A DNA stretch of 64,000 nt from Halorubrum sp. 2020YC2. GTDB lineage: Archaea > Halobacteriota > Halobacteria > Halobacteriales > Haloferacaceae. How positions within the stretch are numbered: the stretch's first letter is position 1; every line of letters starts with the position of its first letter. Both the position numbers and the translations under genes were made by a program. Location of the stretch: positions 434,001 through 498,000 of the forward strand of contig NZ_CP076019.1 of the NCBI RefSeq assembly GCF_018623055.1. Reading direction: 5' to 3'. This document shows, in pieces, positions 5,930 to 55,339 of this stretch. The notes beneath the pieces were generated by a model, which searched no databases, was not told the origin of the DNA, and was given only the letters and a program-made list of their open reading frames with translations.

Positions 5930-8900
5930 ATGACTGAGCCGTCGGAGCTCGTGGGCGTCGTCGAACGGCGCCTCGACTTCCTCGAACGGCTCGCCGCGGA
6001 ACCGCTGCGGAAACACGAGCTCGTCGACGCGCTCGGCCACTCCCGGTCGACGGTGAACCGCGCGATAGACGAGCTGGAGGCGGCGGGGCTCGTCGCCGGC
6101 GAGACGGACGGCTACCGGACGACCCTCTCCGGGCGGCTGCTCGCGAACGCGTACCGCGAGTTCCTGACGGTCGCGGACGACCTCTCGGCCGCGGGCGACG
6201 TGCTCGACCCGCTCGGCGCCGACGCCGACGTCTCCGCCGCGATCCTGCGCGGAGCCGAGACGTACCGGGCCGCGGCCCCGGACCCGTACCGGCCGCTGGA
6301 GGTCCTCGACGACGCGCTGGCCGACGCCGACGCGGTCGCCGCCGCGCTGCCGGCGTTCCCCTACCCCCGGGTCGCGGAGCGGCTCCGGCGCGCGGCCGCC
6401 GGCGGCGGGACCGTCGAGCTCGCGCTGGCGGAGCGGGCGTACGGACACGCCGCCGACCGGTTCGCGGACGACCTCGGAGCCGTCGCGCGCCGGGAGGGGT
6501 GCCGGATCGCGACGGTCGACGACGTCGACGTGGGGGCGGTCGCGGCGGACGGGGTCGCGCTGCTCCTCACCTTCGACGACGGCGCGCTCCACGGCGCGGC
6601 GGTCTCGACCGACCCCGAGGCGGTCGCGTGGGCGGAGGCGCGGGTCAGCGAGCTGATCGACGGGGGAAGCGACGGCGGCGAGACGCTCGCGGCGATGGGT
6701 CAAGCCGGGGCGGACTCACACGAGGGGCGGTCGGGCGAATCCGAAGCCGACAGCCGGCCGAGCGGTTCCCCGGCCGACTCCTCGGGCGCGGAAGGACGCG
6801 GCGACGGGGTCGCGGACTCGGGAGGGGACGGCGACGGGACAGCGGAGTCGGGACGGAGCGACGGCGACGCGCTCTTCGGGCGGTCGAGTCCGGACCGACC
6901 GGGGCGCGACGCGCTCTCGGGGCAGGGGTTCCACCCGGTCGACGAGGACCGGCTCGCGGGGGACCCGGACCCGTACGGACCGCTCCGCGCCACGGCGTCG
7001 TTCCCGGAGGTCGACGCGGGGTACGTCCTCGACAGGACGACGGTCCGCGGCGACGAGCGGCGGTCGATCGCCGGGCTGTTGATCGAGGGGCTCGCGGCCG
7101 GGACCGACCACGCGCTGGTCGGCCCGCCGGGCAGCGGGAAGAGCACCGTCTGCCGGTCCGTCGCGGTCGCGTGGTACCGGTCGGGGCGCGGTCCGGTCAC
7201 CTACCGGCCGGGCGCCGGCGGCGAGGCGTTCACCGCGACCGAGCGCCTGCGGGAGCGCGTCACCGAGAGCGACGGGCACCACCTCGTGGTGGTCGAGGAC
7301 GCCGTCGACCCCGGGGCGGCCGAGGCGATCGGCGTCGCCCGCGAACTGGCCGACCGCGACGACGTGTCCTTCCTCTTCGACGCCCGGGAGGAGCCGTACG
7401 ACGACCCCGACGGGCTCCCCCTCTCGCCGGCGGACCTCCGCTACCGCCGAGCGATAGCGACCGTGCGGATGCCCCGGCTCGACGAGCGCGAGGTCGAGCG
7501 GTTCGTCGGCCACCTCACCGAGCGCACCGGCTCCGCCCCGACCGCCGACGCGGGGTCCCTCCTCACCGACGTGCGGCGCGCCGACGACGAGCGCGTCGGA
7601 GAGCTGCTGTGTCTCGTCCACCACCTCGTCCGCGCGACCGAGGGCCGGGCCGACGGCGCCGGCGGGAGCGGCCCCGAGACGGCGTCCGGACTACGGGGGG
7701 CGGTCGCCGAGTCGGTCCGCGATGCCCGGAACCGGCCGCCGCCGCCGGCGGACGTGGCGGTGCTGGTGAACCTCCTCAACGTCGCCGGCGTCGGTGACGT
7801 CCGGACTCTGGCGTACGCGCTCGTCGACGGGCCGGAGCGGGACGCCGACGCGGGGGGGAGCGGGGCCTCGTCACCGACCGTCGACGAGGTCCGCCGGGCG
7901 CTCGAACGACTGGTCGGAACCGCCCTCGTCGAGTCCGGAGACGGGGGGTACCGGACCGTCCACGACGAGTGGTCGGTGCTGTTCCTGGAACGGTTCGTCG
8001 AGCGGGAACCGGCGCCGGTCGTCGCCAGGCGCGTGGGCCGGGTCGTCTCCCGGGTGCTCGCGCTCGCTGACGACCCCGCGCGTCGATCCCGCGTGCGGCG
8101 GGCCGTCGGCGGGGACGCGCCGACGGTGGACCGGATCGAGCGCCACCCGGGCGCGTGGGCCGCCGAGACGGTCCGCGCGGCGTACGGGGCCGGTCGCCGC
8201 TACCCCCGGCTCGCGGCGCTGTACGGTCGCGTCCGCTACGCTTGGATCGACCTCCCGGACGCGTGTCCGGACGGCCTGCGCGACCGTCCGCCGGAGTGGG
8301 TGGCGCGGATGTACGTCGACGCCGGGGACCTCGACGGCGCGACGGCCGCCCTGGACGCGTGGCGACCGACCGACGGGACCGCGGCGGCCGAGCGCCAGCG
8401 CGGGTACGGCGACGTCGCGCGGCGCCGCGGCGAGTACGACGCCGCGCGCGAGCGGTTCGAGCGGGCCGAGGAGCTGTTCACGGCCGCGGGCGACCGCGCC
8501 GGGTTGGCGGCGGCTGTCAGGGGGCGCGCGCAGGCGGCCCACTTCGACGGCGACTACGAGGTCGCCTACGAGGCGGCCTCGCGGGCGTACGCCATCGCCG
8601 CGGCGGCCGGCGACCCGATCGGGAGGGCGAAGGCGCTGATGGACGCCGGGAACGCGCTCGATGCGCTCGACGGGACCGACGCGGTCCTCGACCACTACCG
8701 GGTCGCCGGCGACCTGTTCCGCGCGCACGACGACACCCACGGGGAGGCGAACGTCCGGACGAACCTCGCGGTCGCGCTGCGGCGGCGGGGGGACCTCGAC
8801 GCGGCCGAGCGGACCGCGAGCCGCGCGCTCGACGGCTACCGGACGGTCGGTGACGAGCACCGGGAGGCCATCTCCCTCCTGAACCTCGCGGCGGTGGCCG

Positions 8901-10975: not shown

Positions 10976-11047
10976 AGGTGACTCTCTTTATAAACGCGTA
11001 CGGGAGGTGTCTGCGGCGCGGTGAACCTTTCCAAATCCCGGTCGCTT

Positions 11048-11396
11048 GCTTATAAATAACCGCTGACGTATCGACGGCAAACGCCGCCAAAGCCCCAGCC
11101 GATCGTTTATAAGTAGTCCTCAACAGATCAACGGCAAACGCCGCCAAAGCCCCAGCCGCGAGGACTCGCGCGGCTCGGTGCGCTCCTCGCTCGTTCGCTC
11201 CGCTCACTCGCTGCGGTGCTTCCGTCGCCGTGCTTCGTCCTCGCGACTGCCCCTTTGAGTCCCACCCCGCACCGCACAGCCCCGCACCTCACACCTCCCC
11301 AGCCTCGTCGGTGGTCCTCCGCGTTGCTCCGGACCACCGACTCCCTCGCGCGTGCTCCTCGTGGCCTGTCGGCCACTCGGAGGCACGCGCCACCGC
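11048..11396 (+). repeat. Dispersed intergenic element, copy A (two TATA modules plus structured body)
   Basis: Most of the 632-base gap between purE and nuoA. It begins with two tandem copies (57-bp period) of a module: GCTTATAAAT or GTTTATAAGT, a 13-base spacer, then a 28-base block ending AAAGCCCCAG (11071-11098 and 11128-11155). The body has three stems. P1: 11154-11165 with 11237-11248 (one mismatch). P2: 11307-11317 with 11331-11341 (11 bp, 13-base loop). P3: 11348-11355 with 11383-11390, plus inner stems of 3 and 6 bp. Copy C at 54.3-54.7 kb has the same order of blocks and stems. Short reading frames inside it are GC-shadow frames. No insertion-type terminal repeats seen. Confidence 0.75.
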
Positions 11397-41428: not shown

Positions 41429-41450
41429 GGCACCCGAGTAGCGCAAAACG

Positions 41451-41760
41451 GACTAGGTCGGGCGGTTAGGCCCCGCTCGTCACCCGCGAGGTAGTCTTTA
41501 GCGGGGACCGAACAGCGGGCACGTCCGGTCAGACCGGCACGGGCCCCGAGAGCCAACGTGGAAGCCTCGTCCGCCGGGGACAGCGGTCCGTGGCGCCCGC
41601 TCGCAGGAGCGGTCCGTCGCGGTTCGTCGGCGACACCGGGTCAGGCGCGGAAGCGAGCAGCCCACCGCCGGACGCCCGTCGCTCGTCGGGTCGCGGGGTG
41701 GAGGAGGCAATCGGGATACCCCGTGCCGGAACGCCGGGCTCCCCCGCCTGTCCGCCATTC
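41451..41760 (+). ncRNA. ffs: Signal recognition particle 7S RNA
   Basis: About 300 nt, the length of haloarchaeal 7S RNA. The helix 8 / SRP54-binding block reads GTCAGGCGCGGAAGCGAGCA, the conserved asymmetric-loop and GGAA-tetraloop region of archaeal and eukaryal SRP RNA. The 5' part GGGCGGTTAGGCCCCGCTCG forms the Alu-type start, and the 3' end CCCCCGCCTGTCC pairs with GGTCGGGCGG near the 5' end to close helix 1. No convincing protein frame explains the stretch. Its ends are set by the helix 1 pairing and are uncertain by about 5 bases. The partner protein SRP19 is encoded at 22.7-23.0 kb. Confidence 0.88.
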
Positions 41761-41863: not shown

Positions 41864-42130
41864 AACCGCCACGAAGTCCCAGCCGCTCGGCGGCACGTGC
41901 TCGACACCACTCCTGCCGCCAACCACTCCGAAGCCCCAGCCGCTCGGCGGTACGTGCTCGACACCACTCCTGCCAACCGCCACGAAGCCCCAGCCTCGCG
42001 GCTCCCTCCGCTTCTCCGGTTGCCGCGTCCAGCGAGAATCGAAGATTCTCTGGCAGCCGGCGGCGAAGCCGCCGGCGACCTCGCGCGTGCGACTCGCGCC
42101 CTCCGGGCGCTCGTCGGCACGCGCCACCGC
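41864..42130 (+). repeat. Dispersed intergenic element, copy B (57-bp repeat array plus terminal stem)
   Basis: Between the SRP RNA and the GNAT gene. Three units start at 41864, 41921 and 41975 (periods 57 and 54). Each begins AACCGCCACGAAG or a close variant and runs through CCCAGCCGCTCGGCGG, then GTGCTCGACACCACTCCTG; the third is cut short. Further hairpins follow (AGAATC-gaa-GATTCT and GCCGGCGGC-gaa-GCCGCCGGC). The end is the same P3 stem as copies A and C: GCGCGTGC (42083-42090) with GCACGCGC (42117-42124), inner stem GCGCCC/GGGCGC. The TATA module is degraded and P1/P2 are absent. Minus-strand reading frames here are repeat-derived. Confidence 0.65.
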
Positions 42131-42156
42131 CCAGCAAAATGAGTCGGTCCCGCGGC

Positions 42157-54336: not shown

Positions 54337-54711
54337 GCGGTGGCGCGTGCCGACGAGCGCCCGAAGGGCGCGATGTCGCACGCGCGAGGGAGTCGATGGT
54401 CCGGAGCGAAGCGGAGGACCATCGACGAGGCTGGGGAGGCGTGAGGTGCGGTCCCGCGAGCGACCGGAGGGAGCGAGCGGGAGAACGGAAGCCGCAGCCC
54501 GCGCAGCGACGCGAGCAGGAACGTCTTCCGGCGGTTGCGGTGCTGTGCGGGGCGGGACTCAAAGGGGCAGCCGGGAAGCGGGCGCAGGCGACGTAAGGAC
54601 CACAGGGAGCGAGTGAAACGAGCGACCGAGGACCGCAGCGAGCGTGCGCCCGCTTCCCGGCTGGGGCTTTGGCGGTGTTCGCCGTCGATCCGCAATCAAC
54701 GATTTATAAGC
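54337..54711 (-). repeat. Dispersed intergenic element, copy C (inverted)
   Basis: 375 bases on the minus strand, between the convergent PHP and DUF457-like genes. It reads in the same order as copy A: GCTTATAAAT box (54702-54711), 13-base spacer, 28-base block ending AAAGCCCCAG (54661-54688), P1, TGCCCCTTTGAGTCCC, CACCTCACGCCTCCCC, P2, P3. P1 pairs 54645-54662 with 54569-54586, 18 bp perfect. P2 pairs 54416-54426 with 54392-54402, 11 bp with a 13-base loop. P3 pairs 54378-54385 with 54343-54350 plus an inner GCGCCC/GGGCGC. Stem sequences differ from copy A while pairing is kept. Reading frames here are not credible genes. Confidence 0.78.
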
Positions 54712-54838
54712 GAGCGCCTGTGATTTCGGACGTGTTAGACGAAAATTCGTCGTCAACTGTTTATAAGTGAACGGCCGGGACGTTGACGACATTATCGCAG
54801 TTTCTAACCCCGACAGGCCCGCCCCGACGCCGACTCAC
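54712..54838. other. AT-richer tail next to repeat element C with two more TTATAA boxes
   Basis: Contains CTGTTTATAAGTG (about 54759-54771) and CACTTATAAC (about 54836-54845, running into the stop of the next gene), plus the inverted repeat ACGAAAATTCGT at 54738-54749. No gene seen. The boxes resemble the TATA part of the repeat module without its 28-base block. Confidence 0.45.
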
Positions 54839-55339
54839 TTATAACCCGAATCCGGCAGCGGCCTCCGAAGCCGCGGACAGGTCCAAGTCAAGATTAACGA
54901 CGTAGGTGTGGATCGCCCAGAACGCCGCCAGTTCGACCGCCGTGACGATCACCGTGACGAGGTCGGCGTACTTGCTGCTCGTCGTCACGCCCGTCGGCAT
55001 CCCGAACTCCCGGTCCGAGAGCGGGTGGAACAGCGCGATGCCGCGCCGGCTGCCGACCACGTCGAGGACGTAGTGCGTCAACACGCCGATCCACACGTAC
55101 TGGAGGTTCCCGAAGAAGATCGGGTACGCGAGGAACACCGCCAGCACGGGGAGGCTGTGAAGCGTCTTGCGGTGGCGCCCGAAGGCGGTGTCGACGTCGG
55201 GGAACAGCGCTCCCAGCACGACCGGGACGGTGATCTCCGCGACGGTGGTGGCGGTCGCCGCGTCGAGACCGGGTTCGACGATGAAGCCGAGTCCCAAGGC
55301 GAGCAGCAGGCCGTTGAGGACGTGGCCGCGTTTGTTCAT
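54839..55339 (-). CDS. Membrane-bound metal-dependent hydrolase (DUF457/YdjM-like)
   Basis: 166 aa, four to five membrane helices. Family motifs: the N-terminal His (MNKRGHVLNGLLLALG), LFPDVDTAFGRHRKTLHSLP with Asp/Asp/His, and HYVLDVVGSRRGIALFHPLSDREFG. These are the conserved polar residues of the YdjM-type integral membrane hydrolases. Substrate unknown in archaea. ATG at 55339 begins directly with the first motif. Confidence 0.85.
   Translation of the reverse strand: MNKRGHVLNGLLLALGLGFIVEPGLDAATATTVAEITVPVVLGALFPDVDTAFGRHRKTLHSLPVLAVFLAYPIFFGNLQYVWIGVLTHYVLDVVGSRRGIALFHPLSDREFGMPTGVTTSSKYADLVTVIVTAVELAAFWAIHTYVVNLDLDLSAASEAAAGFGL

Follow-up and report, generated by a model that had tools for sequence, protein, structure and literature searches.

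The intergenic interval at positions 11048 to 11396 of the window, by which we mean the whole 64,000-nucleotide stretch of Halorubrum DNA analysed here, raises the question of what is conserved in a repeat whose arms keep pairing while their letters change, on which strand it folds, and in which nucleic acid. A preliminary description had listed an ordered set of blocks and three stems (P1 to P3) in this interval (copy A) and at 54337 to 54711 (copy C), and these blocks and stems were recovered in place. As judged from its sequences, the element is real and larger than was then described, and likely includes a G-quadruplex.

The core of copy A, delimited by covariation and by a covariance model match (117.5 bits, E 6.8e-20), spans positions 11145-11267 on the minus strand. 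Its folded strand carries GGG-T-GGG-ACT, the helix P0 (CAAAG/CTTTG), GGG facing GGG, and P1, an irregular helix that contains tandem G.A pairs and a GNA triloop; the four G-tracts lie, on the same strand, at 11265-11267 (tract 1), 11261-11263 (tract 2), 11250-11252 (tract 3) and 11150-11152 (tract 4). Outside the core are the P2 hairpin (11307-11341, minus strand; 11 bp and a 13-nt loop region) and P3 (11348-11390, minus strand), which combines GCGCGTGC/GCACGCGC, a bulged base, a covarying triplet, a tandem G.A step and an inner stem, with 8+3+6 pairs. The left part of the copy (11048-11155, no strand assigned), formerly read as a TATA box with a 28-base block, proved to be a tandem array of two units, each consisting of TTATAA, about 32 bp and CAAAGCCCCAG. 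Within these units TTATAA stands at 11050 and 11107; further ones lie at 10988 and 11408.

Copy C has a core of the same anatomy at 54550-54671 on the plus strand (100.1 bits, E 1.1e-16). Its P3 (54343-54385, plus strand) is separated by 13 nt from the stop codon of the upstream plus-strand gene and is followed by the P2 hairpin (54392-54426, plus strand), and an extra hairpin module that is found in some other copies too lies between P2 and the core (approximate limits 54452-54541, plus strand). TTATAA units occupy 54704-54844 on its 3' side (no strand assigned), at 54704, 54761 and 54839. The window holds nine TTATAA where 0.26 are expected, seven of them at copies A and C. The hexamer is rare (29 in 200 kb), and units farther from the core look more decayed.

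Copies A and C are members of a family, as had been supposed, and this family is not confined to the three copies first recognised: about 150 motif places were found in the genome. The 15-mer GCCCCTTTGAGTCCC with up to two mismatches occurred at 84 + 70 places (154), compared to 4 + 1 for the reversed control, and BLAST of copy A against its own genome returned 46 places. Replication-strand bias was not evident from the 70 and 84 places on the two strands, and both orientations occurred along the chromosome among the places listed. With up to one mismatch, 193 of the 292 class genomes contained the 15-mer, among them all 35 of the genus, where the number of places ranged from 6 to 187 per genome. 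Many genomes of other genera have one or two places only, which may be chance, the control also scoring 1 in some. A further scan yielded at least 120 stretches, and among the matches listed there were 80 loci from many genera, such as Haloarcula, Natrinema, Halorussus, Haladaptatus, Halobaculum and Natronococcus. The closing arm GGGGCTTTC (up to one mismatch, within 400 nt) accompanied 85 of the 90 exact 15-mer matches at the listed loci of other genera.

A covariance model built from 30 cores and applied with strict filters, which may miss weak matches, detected the element in 62 of the 81 Halobacteria genomes sampled, with weak matches (E above 1e-4) in four. All 62 genomes belong to the same genus, family or order, and 19 relatives of these ranks gave no match. 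None of the 311 other Halobacteriota in the sample of 392 genomes of the phylum was matched, 310 of which were assigned outside the order from the kinship ordering of the list. In this sample the family is therefore restricted to Halobacteria, where it forms dispersed, intergenic, non-coding repeats across the class, with dozens to hundreds (up to nearly 190) per genome.

Rfam 15 had no family match at gathering score for the element; the window gave an SRP RNA only and five loci a tRNA only, and a search of copy A at E up to 5 produced a single match under the gathering score (18.2 of 40 bits, E 0.89). Among the papers listed in literature searches we recognised no description of the family, and a text search by four sequence strings gave only papers unrelated by title. 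A CRISPR-like or solo TnpB guide RNA was considered, GGGACTGAAAG resembling repeat ends, and was dropped, as the 3' flank is conserved in Halorubrum rather than guide-like. A plasmid or virus origin was rejected as well: only 4 of 72,556 plasmid records matched, none covering 80% of the query and a Halorubrum record having the highest identity (79.9%), and 0 of 50,697 phage records did.

The covariation on which the preliminary description had based its case for selection was assessed by the covariance model and by covariation counts, and was very strong. The alignment used, A2, comprises 30 cores, of which 21 come from other genera and 9 from this genome, 13 of the 43 sequences of alignment A1 having been omitted for poorer 3' alignment or as outliers. 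Its 33 pairs were paired in 93.9% of 980 cells, and 25 of the 33 change on both sides. The covariation score was 0.622, against 0.180 for shuffled alignments and at most 0.098 with slid partners, the latter comparison favouring the proposed structure because it was derived from the consensus of the same sequences. P0 (SAAAG/CTTTS) covaries from G..C to C..G and from A..T to G..C, its conservation being partly by construction since its letters are mostly fixed by the search patterns. In Halorubrum P2 and P3 keep their pairing, and elaborate internal loops, among them those around GACGYAA, are kept across genera. The exchange of the P3 triplet TCC/GGA for GAC/GTC, previously noticed between copies A and C, is one of many in the family: the 73 parsed of 135 copies include GAC/GTC (19), TGC/GCA (13), TCC/GGA (13), GGT/ACC (7), GAT/ATC (2), GGC/GCC (2) and TTC/GAA (1), together with 16 others that are not fully complementary. 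Moreover, RNA folding on the strand first described beat every dinucleotide shuffle both for copy A (z -4.4, 200 shuffles) and for copy C (z -5.6, 100 shuffles).

Judged by these alignments, evolution has kept the pairing of P0 and of the long irregular P1, and in Halorubrum also that of P2 and P3, along with the tandem G.A steps, the GNA-type triloops, four GGG tracts that hardly vary and imperfections that differ between the strands. Selection on structure is strongly supported by the covariation, the stem imperfections and the apex motif, and the existence of a fold is near certain.

The preliminary description had folded copy A on the plus strand and copy C on the minus strand. According to wobble, G.A, triloop and G-tract signs the conserved fold most likely forms on the reverse of these strands, and the wrong strand was probably folded before. 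The one mismatch reported in P1 of copy A does appear as A.C on the strand used then, and on the opposite strand it is a G.T wobble. In the first 11 pairs of P1, 64 G.T stood against 13 A.C on the reverse strand, an asymmetry that strand-biased deamination could mimic in part, and 47 purine-purine mismatches (G.A, G.G, A.A) against 18 pyrimidine-pyrimidine ones (T.C, C.C, T.T); these counts use 217 of 234 cores (129 of 135 from Halorubrum, 88 of 99 from other genera), the rest having been dropped for poor pairing. Likewise, the P3 triplets contained five G.T and no A.C (73 of 135 parsed), and on the reverse strand the P3 internal loop is a tandem G.A, not T.C.

The apical motif GA-xx-NNN-xx-GA was found on the reverse strand in 113 of 135 Halorubrum copies and 67 of 99 others, compared to 2 and 1 on the opposite strand. 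Its loop is GNA in 96 of 113 and 44 of 67, and in 88 of the 113 the motif is followed by two more pairs and a second G.A tandem. Concordantly, 55 of 135 Halorubrum copies carry GGA-xx-NNN-xx-GGA at the P2 apex on the reverse strand, and none on the opposite one. A point against this strand is that the margin of GNA over TNC was narrower in perfect hairpins with at least 6 pairs (40:24 and 21:20). Energy z-scores for copy A point slightly against the choice of the reverse strand, at -4.4 for the strand first described versus -3.9 for its reverse as RNA and -4.6 versus -3.6 as DNA; energy models do not score quadruplexes. At locus L085 the core near 7003 (minus strand) has its P1 interior inverted between intact ends. 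Inverted repeats would allow such an exchange freely if the strand did not matter, and this was the only such copy noticed in the Halorubrum set.

The GGG tracts are nearly invariant. Their letters were G in 479 of 480 cells among 40 covariance model matches in 4 x 200 kb of Halorubrum DNA around nuoA, the one set picked by position rather than by search patterns containing the tracts, although the model that finds its copies includes the tract positions nonetheless. Half of the copies have T as the one-base loop, and variation is also seen at neighbouring positions (A8 0.90, A12 0.88, G15 0.93). In 12 loci that were retrieved with a 15-mer pattern free of tract 1, 10 of 13 element copies had GGG-Y in the right place; the exceptions were L089, a copy in L095 and another in L096, and L099 resembles a chance match. 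The four conserved G3 tracts are joined by loops allowed in a three-layer quadruplex, namely Y, ACTSAAAG and the P1 hairpin. We think it probable from this arrangement that a three-layer G-quadruplex is built from the four tracts and enclosed by P0 and P1, favoured by the molar potassium of the cells. With both P0 and P1 formed, tracts 3 and 4 would be antiparallel, and tracts 1 and 2, joined by a single base, would be parallel; the simplest model would therefore be a (3+1) quadruplex between two helices. Five loci (L123, L129, L132, L178, L180) have a second type of interior (TCAGCGACC ... ATATGTCG) in the same frame of G-tracts and P0.

Quadruplex-duplex hybrids such as Spinach-type RNAs and PIM1 promoter DNA likewise have tracts separated by a duplex hairpin; here a duplex is predicted on both faces, from sequence only. 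The GNA triloop on a two-base-pair stem recalls d(GCGNAGC) mini-hairpins and the promoter hairpins of phage N4, but in the element it sits among tandem G.A steps within a larger fold, and we know of no polymerase link for its triloops. Such loops on two-pair stems are extraordinarily stable in DNA. A Tm of 76.5 C is given in PMC10527192 for a 2-bp DNA mini-hairpin, presumably d(GCGAAGC). Furthermore, G-quadruplexes of a halophile, Haloferax volcanii, have been reported in both DNA and RNA (PMC12873603); the accessible text of that report has neither "intergenic" nor "Halorubrum", and "repeat" twice, both in the reference list.

The cores lay in intergenic DNA: none of 99 in Halorubrum and none of 91 in other genera overlapped genes called with a simple custom caller trained on the window, overlaps of up to 15 nt being disregarded. 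The Halorubrum copies lay in 36 convergent, 49 tandem and 13 divergent gaps, with 1 at an edge, and those of other genera in 12, 46 and 21, with 12 at an edge. Divergent gaps were thus least used in Halorubrum (13 of 98), while in other genera they outnumbered convergent ones (21 versus 12), which is unlike REPs. Orientation to neighbouring genes was mixed. At seven loci (L104, L106, L117, L127, L141, L143, L145) copies stood back to back with spacers of 15-27 nt, some of them partly palindromic. Among perfect hairpins, triloops, a DNA-type feature, made up 125 of 189 in Halorubrum and 61 of 91 in other genera, compared to 640 of 3113 in the background. G.U pairs made up 29 of about 920 standard cells (3.2%), against 12 of 98 (12.2%) in the SRP RNA of the window and 24 of 355 (6.8%) in tRNAs (16 predictions). 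In view of the mixed gene orientation, the short back-to-back spacers, the few G.U pairs and the triloops, folded DNA, which the preliminary description had mentioned in parenthesis beside a structured RNA, is at least as likely as RNA.

To the reading that the family is a REP-like element acting via folded single-stranded, G-rich DNA we give a probability of about one half; that the relevant molecule is DNA appears evenly balanced, the DNA level being slightly favoured. Replication, repair or transcription would expose the G-rich strand in single-stranded form next to the easily melted TTATAA units, whereupon it would fold; a host protein would recognise or process the fold, much as with REP hairpins. 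Copies mostly stay put through species divergence and would be reshuffled by gene conversion, by which the stems would turn over and the scaffold and pairing persist. Tentatively, and a little short of an even chance, the fold in ssDNA (or RNA) would be a natural duplex-quadruplex-duplex element in which a conserved (3+1)-type quadruplex sits between two covarying helices capped by sheared G.A steps and GNA triloops, maintained by class-wide selection while most stem letters turn over, possibly as molar potassium makes the fold dependable. Several points count against our reading. G.T over A.C and the complex internal loops suit RNA equally, intragenomic concerted evolution can hold any bases constant, no protein partner was found, and most of P1 is missing from at least six minimal copies (L106, L110, L112, L139, L150 and L165, six of the 90 exact matches in other genera, which keep the tract frame with the P1 hairpin nearly deleted). 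A seventh candidate, L147, was set aside because its match to the closing arm is false. If our reading holds, it would describe a covariation-supported, class-wide non-B nucleic-acid fold with a G-quadruplex in a helical scaffold in a potassium-rich cytoplasm, and in organisms related to tractable laboratory strains. G-quadruplex biology is commonly argued from motif counts; here evolution provides the structural evidence. Haloarchaea would also have a REP-like repeat class of their own, and a clear case of kept structure with nearly free exchange of stem sequences.

The strongest rival, possible but somewhat less than probable, is that the G-rich strand acts as RNA, each copy or the surrounding intergenic transcript giving rise to a structured non-coding RNA or UTR domain that may contain an RNA G-quadruplex. 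Covariation, the excess of G.T over A.C, eight U.G among the 30 cells of pair 46-95 in A2 and elaborate internal loops across genera speak for it, as does the next downstream gene lying in sense for 50 of 79 copies in other genera. The position of TTATAA fits it less well. The usual spacing from TATA to start is about 25 nt; TTATAA precedes P3 in 41 of 87 copies and lies only 7-9 nt away in 23 of these, too close for a start before P3 if that spacing applies, and the TTATAA at a sharp position lies past the core, exactly 32 nt beyond its 3' end in 60 of 99 copies, where it might serve as a promoter of the opposite strand, as a readily melting segment, or as both. The lack of a fixed gene orientation, the short back-to-back spacers, the few G.U pairs, triloops instead of tetraloops and the lack of an Rfam match argue in the same direction. 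In a halite metatranscriptome 22 intergenic RNAs of unknown function were common to several Halobacteria (PMC7002113), and these, to which the element may or may not belong, we count in favour of RNA.

Copy A lies upstream of nuoA, and 39 genomes supplied 30 loci for a comparison of this site. Besides G000, L222, L223, L225 and L226 have a clear copy there, placed and oriented alike, and L227, L239 and L243 have remnants; none was seen between both genes in the other 22 loci. Across four species whose aligned blocks are 87.5 to 88.3% identical to G000, 120 comparisons, which come from 40 of 42 elements (two were too near an end) and are not independent because pairs were counted from both sides, gave 51 copies in the same place and orientation, 3 in the opposite orientation, 20 absent, 44 with no anchor and 2 with no synteny. 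Orthologous copies keep scaffold and place, but most show whole stems replaced; in the closest nuoA pair (G000 and G102) the differences were confined to P3 and single letters. Accessory hairpin modules are common, some inserted at loops. The replacement of stems between copies looks like gene conversion.

Such whole-stem exchange, like the inverted P1 interior of L085 and the hairpin modules at loops, could also be taken to mean that matching arms are the product of mutation and not of selection, through quasi-palindrome correction by template switching plus gene conversion. This is unlikely and already disfavoured: correction would erase the conserved mismatches (tandem G.A, GGG facing GGG and the loops around GACGYAA), and it would not prefer a strand, yet no more than 2 of 135 and 1 of 99 copies have the apical motif on the opposite strand.

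We regard it as improbable that the family is a MITE, a PATE or an IS200/IS605-like element still being mobilised by a Y1 (HUH) transposase. High copy number, intergenic location, one-strand hairpins and variable presence between species (absence in 20 of 74 decidable comparisons; the nuoA site) would be in keeping with mobility. Against this, 51 of the 74 comparisons had the copy in the same place and orientation. Y1 (PF01797) was not found in 5 of 19 genomes of the genus, which hold 10, 58, 61, 71 and 98 motif places, and the motif occurred in 3 of 30 Y1 loci; alignments of empty sites gave no clean element ends. Of the marks of MITEs, terminal inverted repeats and target-site duplications, P0 gives 5-bp inverted ends, and the empty-site alignments were too diverged to show duplications.

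The nearest bacterial likeness is with REPs and BIMEs, which are dispersed and intergenic, with one-strand imperfect hairpins, many copies and mosaic modules. The haloarchaeal family is extragenic, repeated and palindromic too (0 of 190 cores in called genes; 154 motif places). It differs in its length of 120-350 nt, its G-tract core, internal loops and several helices, its class-wide fold, and in that no dependence on Y1 (RAYT) was seen, given the genomes in which Y1 was not found and the few Y1 loci with the motif. The accessible text of the RepRanger survey (PMC12306157) has the word "Halo" 0 times. PATEs of Haloquadratum walsbyi are also haloarchaeal non-coding repeats with many copies, palindromic parts and other elements inserted, and their near-terminal palindromes are described as related to IS605-type transposons (PMC3119063). 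No such link was found for the present element, as judged by motif proximity to Y1 genes.

Transcription terminators or insulators between genes are a very improbable reading: 36 of 98 Halorubrum copies do lie between convergent genes, but 49 are tandem and 13 divergent with mixed orientation, and of ten convergent pairs in the window a full copy occupies one and a derivative another. The element derivative at 41872-42131 on the minus strand is probably the third copy (B) of the preliminary description. It has CGAAGCCCCAG-like units in tandem, accessory hairpins, P3 and some of P2, lacks P1 and the core, and gave no significant covariance model match. It comes after an archaeal SRP RNA at 41446-41757 on the plus strand (Rfam RF01857, 174 bits). 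The junction looks like recombination between two CCCCAGCC stretches.
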